NCBI GenBank assembly: GCA_016934535.1
Contig: JAFGSQ010000024.1
Coordinates: forward strand, 1 to 64,000
Direction: 5' to 3'
Source of the DNA: a candidate division WOR-3 bacterium
GTDB taxonomy: Bacteria; SDB-A
Length of the DNA: 64,000 nucleotides
How positions within the stretch are numbered: the first letter of the stretch is position 1; each line of letters starts with the position of its first letter. The position numbers and the translations under genes were made by a program. This document shows positions 33,813 through 40,584 of this stretch, in pieces. The notes under the pieces are model-generated. The model was given only the letters and a program-made list of their open reading frames with translations. It ran no database searches and was not told the origin of the DNA.

Positions 33813-34916
33813 TCAGGCGGTTTCAGAAAACAAAACAGTGCGGTTTTTCCCGCGTCTTTTTGCTTCATACATCGCTTTATCGGCATAAAACAGCAATTCG
33901 TCTTCATTCTTTATCCCGCCTATCTTTGAAGCTTCGGCAACTCCGAGGCTTATTGTTTTCTTAAAATTCGTGCTTCCTGTTTTGAATTCGATTTCTGATA
34001 TTTTTTTTCTTATTTTCTCGGCGATTCGTTTCGCCTGATCTTCGTCCGTATTAGGAAGCAAAACGAGAAACTCCTCTCCACCGAAACGGCCGGCCGTGTC
34101 TTCTTTTCTTATCCCGTCAAAAATGACGCCGGCAATTTTTTTGAGTACTTCGTCGCCGACGAGATGGCCGTATTCATCGTTGCACTTTTTGAAATCGTCA
34201 ATGTCTATCATCACGCAGGACAGAGGGGAGCCGTGCCTTTTGGTTCTGCTGAATTCCTTTTCGAGGGAGTCCATTACGTAAGCCCTGTTATGGATGCCTG
34301 TGAGCCTGTCAGTTATAGCCGTCCTGTAAAGTTCAGCATTCTTTTTCTGAAGCTCCGAGTTAAGGTTTTCGATTTTCTCGTTGATGTTTTTAAGATCTTC
34401 GTTTCTTTTCTCCAGTTCAAGTTTAGCGTTTTCCAGCTGTTTGTACAGGTCTTTTATCTTTTTTAGATATCCGAGAGTCAGTACGCTGACACCGTCGGAT
34501 CTTCTCAATTTCTCGATTATCTCATCTACGATGTTCGAATACGTTTTCGGAAGAACTTCGAATATCTTCGAAAGTTCCCTGGGTTCTATGACGGCTATTT
34601 TTGTGTCTGAAACCGCGTAAACACTGGCAGAAGTTGTCTTGTCGTGACCCAGAACACCCAGCTCTCCGAATATTTCACCTTCTTCCCTGTGAGCTATGTG
34701 AACTTCCTTGTCGTCGGACATTGATTTGGCGACCTTTACCTGGCCTTGAAGAATGAGATAAAGATTTCCGGCTTTTGAATTTTCCTGAATAATGGTCTCG
34801 TTAGGTTCGAAATCCGTTATTGTAAAAAATTCCTCGGGTATCTTTTTTATGTCATTTGCGGCTACGTTTCTGAAAAAACGGTTTGCCGCCAGTTTGGAAA
34901 TTACAATTTCGTCCAT
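33813..34916 (-). CDS. Cyclic-nucleotide-binding domain / GGDEF diguanylate cyclase
   Basis: A 367-residue two-domain protein. Residues ~10-125 form a cNMP-binding fold with G-E-I-F-G-E-L-G-V-L-G, keeping the ribose-binding Glu; where Crp-like sensors have P-R-(S/T)-A the sequence is T-T-S-A-S, so the phosphate-binding Arg is lost and ligand is uncertain. A coiled coil (residues ~165-215) leads to a GGDEF domain: R-F-G-G-E-E-F is an active-site motif and R-K-E-D five residues upstream is the inhibitory site. It should make c-di-GMP. The ATG at 34916 is preferred over an earlier one because it matches the domain boundary. It heads the long minus-strand run and is divergent from the large cyclase. 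Confidence 0.85.
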   Translation of the reverse strand: MDEIVISKLAANRFFRNVAANDIKKIPEEFFTITDFEPNETIIQENSKAGNLYLILQGQVKVAKSMSDDKEVHIAHREEGEIFGELGVLGHDKTTSASVYAVSDTKIAVIEPRELSKIFEVLPKTYSNIVDEIIEKLRRSDGVSVLTLGYLKKIKDLYKQLENAKLELEKRNEDLKNINEKIENLNSELQKKNAELYRTAITDRLTGIHNRAYVMDSLEKEFSRTKRHGSPLSCVMIDIDDFKKCNDEYGHLVGDEVLKKIAGVIFDGIRKEDTAGRFGGEEFLVLLPNTDEDQAKRIAEKIRKKISEIEFKTGSTNFKKTISLGVAEASKIGGIKNEDELLFYADKAMYEAKRRGKNRTVLFSETA

Positions 34917-34987
34917 ATTTTCGCCTGATTTGAGCAAAAGGATTCTATAACATCGAATGTCTTTTTTCAACAACTCTTTGCTTTCTG

Positions 34988-35015
34988 TTGACAAGCCAGG
35001 CCCGTTAACTATACA
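34988..35015 (+). promoter_or_regulatory. Promoter of the large cyclase gene, suggesting a leaderless transcript
   Basis: TTGACA at 34988-34993, 16 bases, then TATACA at 35010-35015. The ATG at 35023 lies seven bases after the -10 box, where transcription would begin, and no Shine-Dalgarno precedes it. This supports the start at 35023 rather than 34957 and a leaderless mRNA. Boxes read by eye only. Confidence 0.4.
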
Positions 35016-35022
35016 TAATCCT

Positions 35023-38000
35023 ATGCGCGATTTGATCCCTCAATTCATAGCGGCAAATTATTCCAACGGAGTTAAATGCGGCAAATTTGACGGTGCAGTC
35101 ATTTTCGCAGACATATCGGGATTCACGGAGATGACTAAAACCCTCATGGAAAAAGGCACCGAAGGTATAGAAGTACTCACCCTTACCATAAACGACGTTT
35201 TTACCCCGGCTCTTTCTATCGTCAGTTCCTCAGGCGGATTCGTGACGGTTTTCGGAGGAGACGCTTTCTACGCCGTTTTCGATTCCTCTTCAGACGATTT
35301 TACATCGAGAGCTCTTTTTTGCGCGCAGGAAATCACGAAACTGTTCGAAGAGTCAGGAATAAAAAAGACATCGTCAGGCGTATTCACTCTATCAGTCAAA
35401 ACCGGTCTTTCCCTCGGTGAAATCAACTGGGGCATAATTGAAAATCCATTTCAGAACTCGTATTATTTCAAAGGGCCTCCGATAGATTCGGCGGCAAAAA
35501 TCCAGAGTTTCTGCAAAAAAAACTCTGTCGCCGCAGACGGTTTTTTCGCGGCTTCTTTCAAAGACCGCAGGATGTTTCATCAAACAGAAAACGGCGTCTT
35601 TTCAACGCTTTGTAAAGTTTCTCCCACAAAAAACAGGCTTCATCAAAAAAAGACCGCTTTTTCTGTTGCTAAAAGTTTCTTCCCTGCCGGAATTTTAGAG
35701 ACTACGGTTAAAGGCGAGTTCAGAGAGGTAGTAAGCGTTTTTTTTTCTTTCAAAGACACTCCTTTTACTTCCGATAACATATCAAAAACAATAAGCCTCG
35801 TCGCGAAGACCGGAGGATATTTCAACAGAGTGAGTTACGGCGACAAAGGCGGTTTCGTTCTCGCTTTTTTCGGCGCACCCTCCGGTAAAGAACTGCTCTG
35901 CGAAAGAGCTTCAAAAATGGCGCTTTCCGTCTCGAAAATACCGGATTTTATGATTTGCGCCGGAATTTCTTTCGGAATGTGCTTCGCCGGTTTCACAGGA
36001 AGCGAAGAAAGAGCAGAATACACCTGTCAGGGTGAAAAAGTTAATCTCGCAGCGAGACTAATGTCGCTCAAGGACGAAAACCTGCCCCGGGAGCCCAGAA
36101 TTCTCATAGATAAGGAGGTCTTCGGTAAAATTAAAGACGGGTTCTCTGCGGAATTCCTGAAAAACGCCACCTTGAAAGGTTTCGAAGAACCGGTTCCTGT
36201 CTATCTGCTGAGTGATGACAGAGAAGAAAGATCCCGCGTTCGTAAAGGCGGGAAAATAGTCGGAAGACAGAAACAGCTCAGAGCCGCATCTGACCTTTTA
36301 ACGAAGGCAAAGGAAGGCGCCGGAGGAGTATTGATGCTGAAAGGAGACGCGGGGACAGGAAAAAGCTTTTTTATAGAGGAGCTGGCGTCGCTTCATCCTT
36401 CCTTCACTTGGATATTCATGCCCTGCGATCAGATATTCAGATCTTCTCTGAATCCCGCTTCTCATTTCATCAAGGATTTTTTTTCCATATCAAAAAATGC
36501 GAATTCCGAAAATACTCTTGAATCGATAAGGGAAAAGACAAAAAAAATTATGATGAGCGGCGAAATCCGCGACAAGAGAGAACATGATATAATCGTCTAT
36601 TATTTTGCAACTCTCGCGGGACTGAACCCAAAAGACTCTTTTCTCGACTCTCTCAATCCGAAGAATAAAAAAGATGAAACCGTCTATTATGTCAAATCGC
36701 TCATAAAGTCGATGTCCCAAAATAATCCGACGGCGGTTTTCATAGACGACCTTCACTGGATTGACGAAGATTCGAAGGTTCTTCTCAAGGATATTTGTTC
36801 AAACACCCTGAACTTACCTCTCGTCGTAATAACGGCTCAGCGCCCGATTGATGAAATTGTTGAAAGATCTTTCATGCAGGACCTGCCGGGTCGGGTGACA
36901 CAAATTATGCTCGAACCGTTTTCCCGCAGTGATTCATACGAACTCGTCCGCGAACTTCTCGGCTCTGACGAAGTCCCGCTGTCTACACTCGACAGAATAC
37001 ACGACAAATCCGAGGGCAATCCCTTCTTCATTCAGCAGACAGTGAGTTTTCTGACTGAAAATAAAATTTTGTCCGATGATTTCAGATTTTCAGAGGGCAC
37101 GGATTTCATACCGTCAGACGTCCGGACAATTATCGTCTCCAGGGTGGACAGATTTGAAAAATTCCTGAAAAATGCCGTTTTGAAAGCTTCCGTCCTCGGA
37201 AGAGAATTTTCATCTGATATCCTGGCCTCCATGGATCTGGAAAGACCTCTCGAAAATGTTATTGCCGATGGACTCCGGACAAATGTATGGAGAAATATCG
37301 GAGGACGGAAATTCGAGTTCACGCACGCACTCATAAGGGACTCGGTTTACGATATGCAGTTAAAAAGCGACCTGAGGGCGCATCATGCCAGAGCCGCGAG
37401 AATTTACGAAAATTTGCCCGGGGACAGGCGGGAATCCGATCCGGGTATAATTGCCCATCACTACGATATGGCTATGGACTCGGAAAAAGCGCCCTTTTTT
37501 TTGAAAAAAGCGATTGAAAAAGCTGAAAATAACTTCGCAACAAGTGATGCACTGCGGTTTTGCGACGCTCTCGACAAATATCTTCCTCCGGGAAAAGAAA
37601 AAATCTCAAACTCAATAGAAAAAACAAAACTGATGCTTTTGGATGGAAATCTCAACGAAGCGGAGATTTTCGGAGAAAAAATTCTTTCGGAAATCACAAA
37701 AAGCCGCGAAAACGATTTTCTGCCGAAATGCCTTCTCCGTTTGATAGAGATCACTCAAAGACTTTTCAAACTCGACAAAAACATGTCTTATATTAAACAG
37801 GCCAAAAAATATCTGGCGACATTTAAAGACGAGGATTTCGAAATGGACATCCTCAAAGCCACCGCTTTTTATTGGCACAGCAAGGAAAATATAAAAAAAG
37901 CGTTTGAATATTTTGAAAAAGCCCTCGATCTTTCCCGCAGACTGAAAGACAAAAAATCGGAATCACACCTGCTGTCGGACATAGCAATATTCTGCGGCAA

Positions 38001-38892
38001 TGAACTCGGATTCGACAAAGTGCTGGATTATCTTTTTGAAGGTCTGAAAATCGCCGAAGAAATCGGAGACATAAAAAATGAAGAGATAATCTACTCAAAC
38101 ATCGCTCTTTCATACCAGGAACTTTTCCTCGACGTCGAAAAAAGCTTCGAATACTATCAAAAAGCGATGTCTCTTTCACAAAAGTTCGGTGACAAGCCGG
38201 CGCTGATGAATGAACTGAATAACATTGCTATAATTTATCAACTGAAAGGAGATGACGAATCCGCACTCGATTGCTTCAACCGGTCCCTCGACATGGCTGT
38301 TGAAAAAGGACACAAAATGGCTTCAGTTAACGCTCTTGGAAACCTGTCGGCTTACTTCAGATTCTCGGGTAATTTCACAAAATCCCTCGGTTACATAGAA
38401 AGAGCAGAAAGAATGGTAGAAAACACGCCGATGGAAGAACTGCTCCTGAGGATACTCATGGACAAATTCGAAACAATTCTCGGGCTTAAAGATTTCGAGG
38501 CAGCGGAAAAACTTCTGGAAAGGATAAATTTAATACACCGAAAACTTCACTCCTGTGACTGGGAAAAATACGCCTTCGGAAAATTGAGAATTTTTTACCT
38601 CACTACGGGTGAAAAACATGCGATAATCTCAATGGAAAATGAAGCGGAAAAAATAAAGGAAAAGTCTGTCAAGGCGTCTTTTTACTTGAAAATATGGGAA
38701 ATCACAGGTTCCAGTAAATACGCGGAACTGTCACGCGAATTTTTCACAAGAATAATAGAAGAGCCTCCTGAAAACTACAAAGATTTCTACTGGATTCTGC
38801 AAAGAAGAAAACTTGAAAAGTTTCTCGAAAAAAATTCAACCGCAGACGGGAAGCCGGAAAGTGAAAACACTTCCGGCACATCCTTCGGATGA
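35023..38892 (+). CDS. Soluble-adenylyl-cyclase-like protein: two cyclase domains, AAA ATPase, TPR
   Basis: A protein of 1289 residues from the ATG at 35023 (a less likely ATG at 34957 adds 22). Cyclase domain 1 (~25-165) holds both metal Asp (F-A-D-I-S-G-F-T, D30; F-G-G-D, D80) but has D-S-A-A-K in place of N-x-x-x-R. Domain 2 (~235-380) lacks the first metal Asp but has the purine Lys in Y-G-D-K-G-G (K275), Thr 334 at the class IIIb position and N-L-A-A-R (N341, R345). The pair therefore rebuilds one heterodimeric site, as in soluble adenylyl cyclase. A P-loop (GDAGTGKS, ~441-448), a Walker B (V-F-I-D-D) and a long TPR region follow. Likely makes cAMP under control of the ATPase/TPR part. 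Its end overlaps the histidine-kinase gene. Confidence 0.85.
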   Translation: MRDLIPQFIAANYSNGVKCGKFDGAVIFADISGFTEMTKTLMEKGTEGIEVLTLTINDVFTPALSIVSSSGGFVTVFGGDAFYAVFDSSSDDFTSRALFCAQEITKLFEESGIKKTSSGVFTLSVKTGLSLGEINWGIIENPFQNSYYFKGPPIDSAAKIQSFCKKNSVAADGFFAASFKDRRMFHQTENGVFSTLCKVSPTKNRLHQKKTAFSVAKSFFPAGILETTVKGEFREVVSVFFSFKDTPFTSDNISKTISLVAKTGGYFNRVSYGDKGGFVLAFFGAPSGKELLCERASKMALSVSKIPDFMICAGISFGMCFAGFTGSEERAEYTCQGEKVNLAARLMSLKDENLPREPRILIDKEVFGKIKDGFSAEFLKNATLKGFEEPVPVYLLSDDREERSRVRKGGKIVGRQKQLRAASDLLTKAKEGAGGVLMLKGDAGTGKSFFIEELASLHPSFTWIFMPCDQIFRSSLNPASHFIKDFFSISKNANSENTLESIREKTKKIMMSGEIRDKREHDIIVYYFATLAGLNPKDSFLDSLNPKNKKDETVYYVKSLIKSMSQNNPTAVFIDDLHWIDEDSKVLLKDICSNTLNLPLVVITAQRPIDEIVERSFMQDLPGRVTQIMLEPFSRSDSYELVRELLGSDEVPLSTLDRIHDKSEGNPFFIQQTVSFLTENKILSDDFRFSEGTDFIPSDVRTIIVSRVDRFEKFLKNAVLKASVLGREFSSDILASMDLERPLENVIADGLRTNVWRNIGGRKFEFTHALIRDSVYDMQLKSDLRAHHARAARIYENLPGDRRESDPGIIAHHYDMAMDSEKAPFFLKKAIEKAENNFATSDALRFCDALDKYLPPGKEKISNSIEKTKLMLLDGNLNEAEIFGEKILSEITKSRENDFLPKCLLRLIEITQRLFKLDKNMSYIKQAKKYLATFKDEDFEMDILKATAFYWHSKENIKKAFEYFEKALDLSRRLKDKKSESHLLSDIAIFCGNELGFDKVLDYLFEGLKIAEEIGDIKNEEIIYSNIALSYQELFLDVEKSFEYYQKAMSLSQKFGDKPALMNELNNIAIIYQLKGDDESALDCFNRSLDMAVEKGHKMASVNALGNLSAYFRFSGNFTKSLGYIERAERMVENTPMEELLLRILMDKFETILGLKDFEAAEKLLERINLIHRKLHSCDWEKYAFGKLRIFYLTTGEKHAIISMENEAEKIKEKSVKASFYLKIWEITGSSKYAELSREFFTRIIEEPPENYKDFYWILQRRKLEKFLEKNSTADGKPESENTSGTSFG

Positions 38893-40584
38893 AACACTTA
38901 TGTTTCCTCCGTGAAGTTCGACCAGTCTTTTGACTATTGAAAGACCGAGGCCTGTCGTCTGTTCTCCGTTTGTTCCCAATCTCCTCGCTTCGGTGAATTT
39001 GTCGAATATTTTTTTTTTCATGTCATCGGGAATCCCTATTCCGTCGTCGGCTACGGAAACGACGGCCGATTCTGAATGATCAGCATTCTCTTTTCTCAAT
39101 GTCACTGATATTTTTCCGCCTTTGCTCGTGAATTTGAGAGCGTTCGAGAAAAGATTCTGCATAATCTGCCAGAATCTGTTGAAATCGACGCGGCAAATAC
39201 ATTCTCCGGATTCGTTTATCCATTCAAAGTCGACGCCTTTTTTCTGTGACAATCTCCTAAAATCTCCTGAAAATTCCGTTATCAGGCCGGATATGTCAAG
39301 TTTCTGAAGATCGAGCGAAAAATCCTCGCTTTCGATTTTGTTGACTTCAAGTATGTCATCGACAAGAACGAGAGCCCTTGTTACGTAATGATTGATTACA
39401 TTGATCGTCTCTTCAACCTCATCGTTGAGTTTCTGCTGCAGGGACAACATCTGCGACAGAGGCAGAATGGATCCTATAGTACCTTTGAGGTCGTGAGAGA
39501 CCACTCTCAGTATTGTGTCTTTGGACATGTTTATAGCGAGCAGTTCTTCGTTTTTTTTGGCGAGTTCCGCATTCTGGTTTTCTATTTTCGCGTAAGCACT
39601 CGCCAGTTCTTCATTTTTCATTTTATATATTTCCGCTTCCCTTTCCTTGACCCTAACTTCGAATCTTGCGTCCATTTCAGCTATTTTCGCGGTTTTTTCC
39701 TCGTTGAAAATGGCTTCCATTTTTTCAGCGCGGACCCGGCTGAAATAAAGAGCGTTTTGCAAATCTCCTTTTGTCTCAAATAACTCCGAAAGTATTTTTG
39801 CCGAATTCATCTGCCCCAAATTGTTTTCCGTGGAAAAATAAATGTCAAAAGCCTCTTTTGCGTATTCTAAAGATTTTTCAACATCCCCTTTTTCTTTCAT
39901 CACAAGGCCAATATTAAAAATCGCAGGAGCCTCCCCGTTTCTGTCTCCTAACTCATGCTTTAATGATAGAGCTTTTTCGTAAAATGTCAGGGCTTCGTCG
40001 AGATTCCCAGTTTCCCTGTATATCTCTCCGATGTTGTTGAAAATAAATGAAAGCGCTCTTTTGTCGCCCGTCTTTTCCGCGATTGTCCTCGCCCGTTCCA
40101 GGTATTCGAGACCTTTCTTGAATTCGCCGAAGCTTCTGTAGACGTTTGCTATGTTGTTACAGCTCTGCTGAATCCATTTGTCTACATTTTCCTTTTCTCT
40201 TATTTCAAGGGATTTTTTCATATATGTCAGCGCTTTTTCCCTCATATTCATCTTGGCAAAGACAATGCCTATTCCTTCGTATGAACTGGTCAGGGGATCA
40301 GTGTCCGTTTCCGTCTGGGCGACTTTGTGAAAATATTCGAGGGCCTTGTCGAAATCAGACATCTGAAAGCAAAGAAAACCGAGACGCAGAAGAGCCTTGC
40401 TTTTTTTCCCGTCTATGCCTTTTTTTTCACATATCTCAAGGGCAGTCAGAGCGCAGTTGAATGAAGGAACTATTTCGTATTTGTCGAAAAATTCTCTTGC
40501 TTTTTTGAGGAGAAAAGTGACCTTTCCCTCATCAGATGAAAGAGTCTCTACTTCGTCAAGGACATTTTCAGCTTTATCTGCCAT
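38836..40584 (-). CDS. TPR-containing sensor histidine kinase
   Basis: A 582-residue cytoplasmic kinase without membrane helices. The first ~300 residues are TPRs, ending in a coiled coil. The H-box is R-V-V-S-H-D-L-K-G-T-I-G, the N-box N-L-F-S-N-A-L-K-F-T, with V-A-D-D-G-I-G-I-P and G-L-G-L-S-I-V-K as the ATP lid. It autophosphorylates on the H-box His; the partner regulator is not adjacent. The ATG has AAAGGAG five bases upstream. Its last 57 bases lie antiparallel under the end of the large cyclase gene, so transcription of one could affect the other. The TPR part resembles the C-terminal region of the cyclase, suggesting related ligands. Confidence 0.88.
   Translation of the reverse strand: MADKAENVLDEVETLSSDEGKVTFLLKKAREFFDKYEIVPSFNCALTALEICEKKGIDGKKSKALLRLGFLCFQMSDFDKALEYFHKVAQTETDTDPLTSSYEGIGIVFAKMNMREKALTYMKKSLEIREKENVDKWIQQSCNNIANVYRSFGEFKKGLEYLERARTIAEKTGDKRALSFIFNNIGEIYRETGNLDEALTFYEKALSLKHELGDRNGEAPAIFNIGLVMKEKGDVEKSLEYAKEAFDIYFSTENNLGQMNSAKILSELFETKGDLQNALYFSRVRAEKMEAIFNEEKTAKIAEMDARFEVRVKEREAEIYKMKNEELASAYAKIENQNAELAKKNEELLAINMSKDTILRVVSHDLKGTIGSILPLSQMLSLQQKLNDEVEETINVINHYVTRALVLVDDILEVNKIESEDFSLDLQKLDISGLITEFSGDFRRLSQKKGVDFEWINESGECICRVDFNRFWQIMQNLFSNALKFTSKGGKISVTLRKENADHSESAVVSVADDGIGIPDDMKKKIFDKFTEARRLGTNGEQTTGLGLSIVKRLVELHGGNISVSSEGCAGSVFTFRLPVCG

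Follow-up and report, generated by a model that had tools for sequence, protein, structure and literature searches.

Class III cyclases of the CyaB and CyaC type are homodimers in which a single domain carries all of the residues, and Thr replaces the adenine Asp. In human soluble adenylyl cyclase (sAC), bicarbonate is bound by K95 and R176, and the base of ATP is recognized by K334 (PMC12867704, Table 1) through a contact reported as water mediated (PMC12867704). The sAC enzymes of sea urchin and salmon, each with one of K95 and R176 replaced, are reported to be pH responsive and insensitive to bicarbonate (PMC12867704). Bacterial relatives of sAC were described by Roelofs and Van Haastert in 2002 and by Kobayashi, Buck, and Levin in 2004, as cited in PMC6660944 and PMC11006738, and the citation in PMC11006738 credits Kobayashi 2004 with bicarbonate activation of a Chloroflexus cyclase. 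Since such relatives have been published since 2002 to 2004, the protein analyzed here is, as far as these citations describe them, a further member of an already known type.

The window, the whole stretch of DNA that we analyzed, comprises 64,000 nucleotides from a candidate division WOR-3 bacterium. The gene at 35023-38892 on its + strand encodes a 1289-aa protein in which a pair of class III cyclase domains is followed by an AAA_16 ATPase and TPRs. The open reading frame listed for this gene opens at 34957 and is longer than the gene from 35023; the conserved N-terminal motif of the family, RxLIPxFI, begins at 35023, which indicates that the ATG at 35023 is the right start and that the longer frame is unlikely as the gene. 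The main parts of the locus are as follows.

34988 to 35022, + strand: TTGACA and TATACA-like elements, a possible leaderless promoter, read by eye and ending near the ATG at 35023
35023 to 38892, + strand: cyclase-AAA_16-TPR gene, with ATG 35023 chosen over 34957
35095 to 35532, + strand: cyclase domain 1, C1 type, the metal-binding half (Pfam Guanylate_cyc and domain 1 profile)
35710 to 36216, + strand: cyclase domain 2, C2 type, the base and transition-state half (domain 2 profile)
36256 to 36831, + strand: AAA_16 NTPase (Pfam E value of 2e-17 for the protein)
36343 to 36366, + strand: Walker A motif GDAGTGKS within AAA_16
37798 to 38538, + strand: TPR region (Pfam TPR_12, E value of 8e-19; NCBIfam TPR matches)

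Two stretches of the protein matched Pfam Guanylate_cyc above the cutoff, AAA_16 and TPR were also matched, and a phmmer search with the protein found human sAC with both domains covered, bearing out the two cyclase domains that the first-pass annotation had placed here. The TPR region had PDB matches of the LGN/Pins type. An identity as a TOMM kinase/cyclase (TIGR03903) was rejected, as the match fell far below the cutoff. The promoter-like elements, which suggest a leaderless or near-leaderless transcript, have comparable counterparts upstream of locus L086 and less exact ones upstream of L088; a consensus promoter scan did not return the TTGACA/TATACA-like pair before ATG 35023.

With a profile built from 26 tandem sequences, human sAC was the best match in the PDB (E value of ∼9e-59, profile positions 15 to 400), followed by Pseudomonas CyaB (3r5g; 1e-28) and Spirulina CyaC (1wc0; 3e-25). 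Each single-domain profile scored its human counterpart over 75 bits higher than the other half: that of domain 1 scored 105.8 bits against human C1 versus 27.2 against C2, and that of domain 2 scored 103.2 bits against C2 versus 11.7 against C1. A FastTree phylogeny of all domains grouped domain 1 with human C1 (0.993) and domain 2 with human C2 (0.989), with the non-tandem cyclases outside both groups; this separation is most simply explained if the C1/C2 split is shared by inheritance. When whole tandems were compared, human sAC fell among the tandem proteins of other bacteria (support of 0.91 to 0.96) and not with the family of the window protein. The first-pass description of a bacterial counterpart of ADCY10 is fair as a statement about architecture, but the protein is one of many (by hand count of the listed places, 40 of the 386 sampled genomes have a full tandem match) and human sAC branches elsewhere. 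Among genome contigs, the scan for relatives returned one, L068, which is the closest record, also belongs to candidate division WOR-3, and is 51% identical over the whole protein. The plasmid search gave a single match, a partial one to the second domain; no relatives of the tandem cyclase were found in the scan of viral contigs, and a literature search pairing WOR-3 with adenylate cyclase found no paper.

We then assigned the active-site residues by alignment, numbering them from the ATG at 35023 and taking the numbers and roles of the human sAC residues from PMC12867704 (Table 1) and PMC12250328. Conservation was scored over 69 bacterial sequences with both domains, drawn from the fetched loci; these rows were picked by similarity to the family profile and are a nonrandom set, which spans many bacterial families and includes distant sequences.

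35110 to 35112, + strand: D30, first metal Asp (human D47); Asp in 68/69 tandem rows
35248 to 35250, + strand: V76, in place of the bicarbonate-binding K95; Lys in only 4/69 rows
35260 to 35262, + strand: D80, second metal Asp (human D99); Asp in 69/69 tandem rows
35398 to 35400, + strand: K126, pyrophosphate Lys (human K144); Lys or Arg in 64/69 rows
35485 to 35499, + strand: degenerate N-x-x-x-R helix of domain 1, D155...K159, with A158 at the position of bicarbonate-binding R176
35746 to 35748, + strand: S242, lost first metal Asp of domain 2; Asp in 0/69 tandem rows and in 10/11 non-gap non-tandem rows
35827 to 35829, + strand: R269, at the adenine-lysine position (human K334) by alignment; common to a clade of 8
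35842 to 35850, + strand: D274-K275-G276, sAC-type C2 beta2/3 insertion (human FDKG 338-341; PMC12867704, Table 1)
36022 to 36024, + strand: T334, adenine-binding Thr (human T405; role from PMC12250328); Thr in 56/69 rows
36043 to 36057, + strand: N341-x-x-x-R345 (human N412 and R416); 66/69 rows each

Domain 1 retains both metal-binding Asp residues and has lost the Asn and Arg of its N-x-x-x-R helix, while the class IIIb Thr and the N-x-x-x-R motif are present in domain 2 (T334, N341, and R345), all as had been read at first pass. That reading had domain 2 losing only the first of its metal Asp residues; the first is indeed gone (S242), but the second is gone too, its position being occupied by G277, where Asp occurs in 2/69 tandem rows. 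A second correction concerns the adenine lysine, for which the Lys of Y-G-D-K-G had been taken. Human INKVFMFDKG aligns with FNRVSYGDKG of the window protein, such that K275 corresponds to human K340 in the C2 insertion and the adenine position (K334) is held by Arg269. The register is confirmed by the aligned non-tandem cyclases, 10 of whose 13 non-gap rows have Lys in the K334 column. The insertion itself is largely confined to tandem proteins: its Asp occurs in 60/69 and its Lys in 61/69 tandem rows, and 13 of the 15 non-tandem rows are gapped there. At the K334 position, the other tandem rows most often have Lys (32/69), and Arg is found in a clade of eight (support of 0.70) and in three further rows elsewhere; the Lys-to-Arg change is a derived one. 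The corrected position matters for any mutagenesis.

The two metal Asp residues of domain 1 occurred together with the Asn and Arg of domain 2 in 63/69 bacterial tandem rows, and a composite, heterodimeric site is therefore well supported. Judged from these sequences, the complementary residue pattern of the two domains is not chance. Direct computation gave the identity of the domains, the assignment and conservation of their residues, and their homology to human C1 and C2. Across the 69-sequence family, the composite metal and N-x-x-x-R site and the DKG insertion are widely shared; K95 and R176 are not.

Taking these results together, we favor the reading that the gene encodes a cytosolic sAC-type cyclase in which C1 and C2 form a heterodimer with one active site, with cAMP as the likely product and with gating by the AAA and TPR parts, and we give this reading a probability of roughly 0.7. 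From the comparisons above we infer its heterodimer fold, activity, product, and regulation. Within one chain, domains 1 and 2 would fold together as a heterodimer of C1 and C2 that has only one functional site. Domain 1 would contribute D30 and D80, which hold the two metal ions, and K126, which serves the pyrophosphate; from domain 2 would come the base-binding T334, probably joined by R269, and the catalytic N341 and R345. The second, pseudo-symmetric site would be dead. The AAA_16 NTPase and TPR arm would most likely be regulatory, gating the cyclase upon binding of a protein or ligand. An intramolecular sAC-type heterodimer that also carries AAA and TPR parts had already been proposed at first pass, and it is supported by the PDB profile search, the domain profiles, the domain tree, the 69-row conservation, and the Pfam matches. 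The face-to-face pairing of C1 and C2 is proposed from homology only; AlphaFold2, run with only two input sequences (the window protein and L068), gave a pLDDT of 36.8 and a pTM of 0.29.

As for the product, ATP would be favored over GTP by T334 and by the basic character of the residue at the lysine position, which is Arg here rather than Lys. In guanylyl cyclases, the two base-recognition positions are typically Glu and Cys; the window protein has neither, with R269 and T334 there. The most likely product would be cAMP. The same genome encodes several cyclic nucleotide monophosphate (cNMP)-binding proteins with the standard phosphate-binding Arg (one CRP-like, one MscS-type channel, and two single-domain proteins), which makes these proteins plausible cAMP receptors. 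The channel gene (L126, G000:C65) reads as a fusion of an MscS-type channel and a cNMP-binding domain whose phosphate-binding site is standard, and its product is a candidate cAMP-gated channel.

The tandem could instead be a noncatalytic module that senses nucleotides or serves in regulation, that is, a pseudo-cyclase. The genome (2.23 Mb) holds about 14 sAC-type tandem copies, including that of the window, besides several other class III cyclases, and nine of the 14 tandem paralogues retain all of D, D, K, T, N, and R. Numbered as in human sAC, the paralogue at C6:27309 (L022, G000:C6:27303-30686) has D47N, T405V, and R416M and is probably a pseudo-cyclase, that at C6:15114 has N412I and T405S, and that on C66 has T405M. 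Several paralogues of the same genome thus lack catalytic residues, and loss of activity does occur in the family; the replacement of the adenine Lys by Arg in the window protein points the same way. Against this, the window protein and its close orthologues down to 55 to 60% identity have kept all of the residues that serve the metals, the pyrophosphate, and the transition state, and we consider a pseudo-cyclase unlikely. Two other loci (L101, G002:C20; L098, G002:C13) each contain a pair of sAC-type tandem genes arranged head to tail, which suggests expansion by tandem duplication.

Less probable still is an active cyclase whose choice of substrate has been changed or broadened by the Arg at the adenine-lysine position. 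R269 is fixed in the clade of 8, while Lys is the commonest residue elsewhere; however, T334 is kept where guanylyl cyclases typically have Cys alongside their Glu, the change from Lys to Arg preserves the charge, and the K334-base contact is reported to run through water (PMC12867704).

A bicarbonate-regulated orthologue of sAC is very improbable. Bicarbonate or CO2 sensing had been suggested at first pass from the Thr; this residue is in keeping with class IIIb, but its presence alone does not mean that bicarbonate is sensed. The sAC-type C2 insertion also speaks for such regulation. The residues themselves do not support the sAC mechanism: K95 is replaced by V76 and R176 by A158, and sea urchin and salmon sAC, with one such change each, are reported to be insensitive (PMC12867704). 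Of the 69 bacterial tandem rows, 4 have Lys and 2 have Arg at the K95 position, 1 has Arg at the R176 position, and none has both K95 and R176. On this alignment, the protein is unlikely to bind bicarbonate where the mammalian enzyme does. The activation of the Chloroflexus cyclase, as PMC11006738 cites it from Kobayashi 2004, makes bicarbonate sensing elsewhere in the class possible, but the mammalian site is absent from the window protein.

The cyclase gene is flanked by two genes on the opposite strand.

33813 to 34916, − strand: cNMP-binding and GGDEF diguanylate cyclase gene, divergent neighbor upstream of the cyclase (Pfam)
38836 to 40584, − strand: TPR histidine kinase gene, convergent downstream neighbor (Pfam), its 3′ end overlapping that of the cyclase gene by 57 bp

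The convergent overlap with a TPR histidine kinase gene also occurs in L086, L087, and L104. An orthologue of the cNMP-GGDEF gene adjoins the cyclase in L068/L086, which are one and the same place; in G001 and G003, each of the two orthologous genes lies at the end of a contig and points away from that end, which fits adjacency without proving it, as the contig ends share no overlap. The neighbor has, as read from its sequence, GGEEF and an RxxD site. In the genus of the window, its cNMP domain has lost the phosphate-binding Arg (DKTTS, DKITS), which is kept in the G003 orthologue (RPRSA). Gene position suggests a relay from cAMP to c-di-GMP, and the missing Arg weakens it. We regard as tentative, and on balance doubtful, the idea that the sAC-type group with Arg269 is specialized and wired to the cNMP-GGDEF protein as such a relay, in a lineage that has expanded these proteins to ∼14 copies, each tuned differently and some having become pseudo-enzymes. 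Earlier examples of c-di-GMP enzymes under the control of cAMP are Bd1971, a cNMP-binding EAL protein, and Lcd1, which joins a cAMP-binding GAF domain to GGDEF (PMC8846402); the window neighbor differs from both in pairing a cNMP-binding domain with GGDEF and in the loss, within its genus, of the usual phosphate-binding Arg. A Pycsar-type defense cyclase with an adjacent effector, to which weak PADLOC matches point (the cyclase to PycC, the cNMP domain of the neighbor to Pycsar TIR effectors), was rejected as hardly credible, because the neighbor has GGDEF and not a TIR or membrane effector, such matches would come up for class III cyclases and cNMP domains in general, and the family is multicopy within the genome.

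The sAC-type heterodimer that we favor compares with described systems as follows. Like human ADCY10 (PDB 4clf and 4oya), the window protein has a C1-C2 tandem with the same division of residues, the DKG insertion in C2, and then an NTPase and TPRs. Unlike the human enzyme, it lacks K95 and R176 and has Arg in place of Lys334, so that the adenine lysine, a feature of a strict ADCY10 orthologue, is absent (R269), and other bacterial tandem proteins are nearer to human ADCY10. CyaB (3r5g) and CyaC (1wc0) share the catalytic fold and match much more weakly (1e-28 and 3e-25) than human sAC does (9e-59). With the published bacterial relatives of sAC, compared through the papers that cite them and above the level of single residues, the protein shares an sAC-related cyclase joined to a P-loop NTPase domain. 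Set beside these systems, it offers a clean, testable bacterial enzyme of sAC type without the mammalian bicarbonate site.
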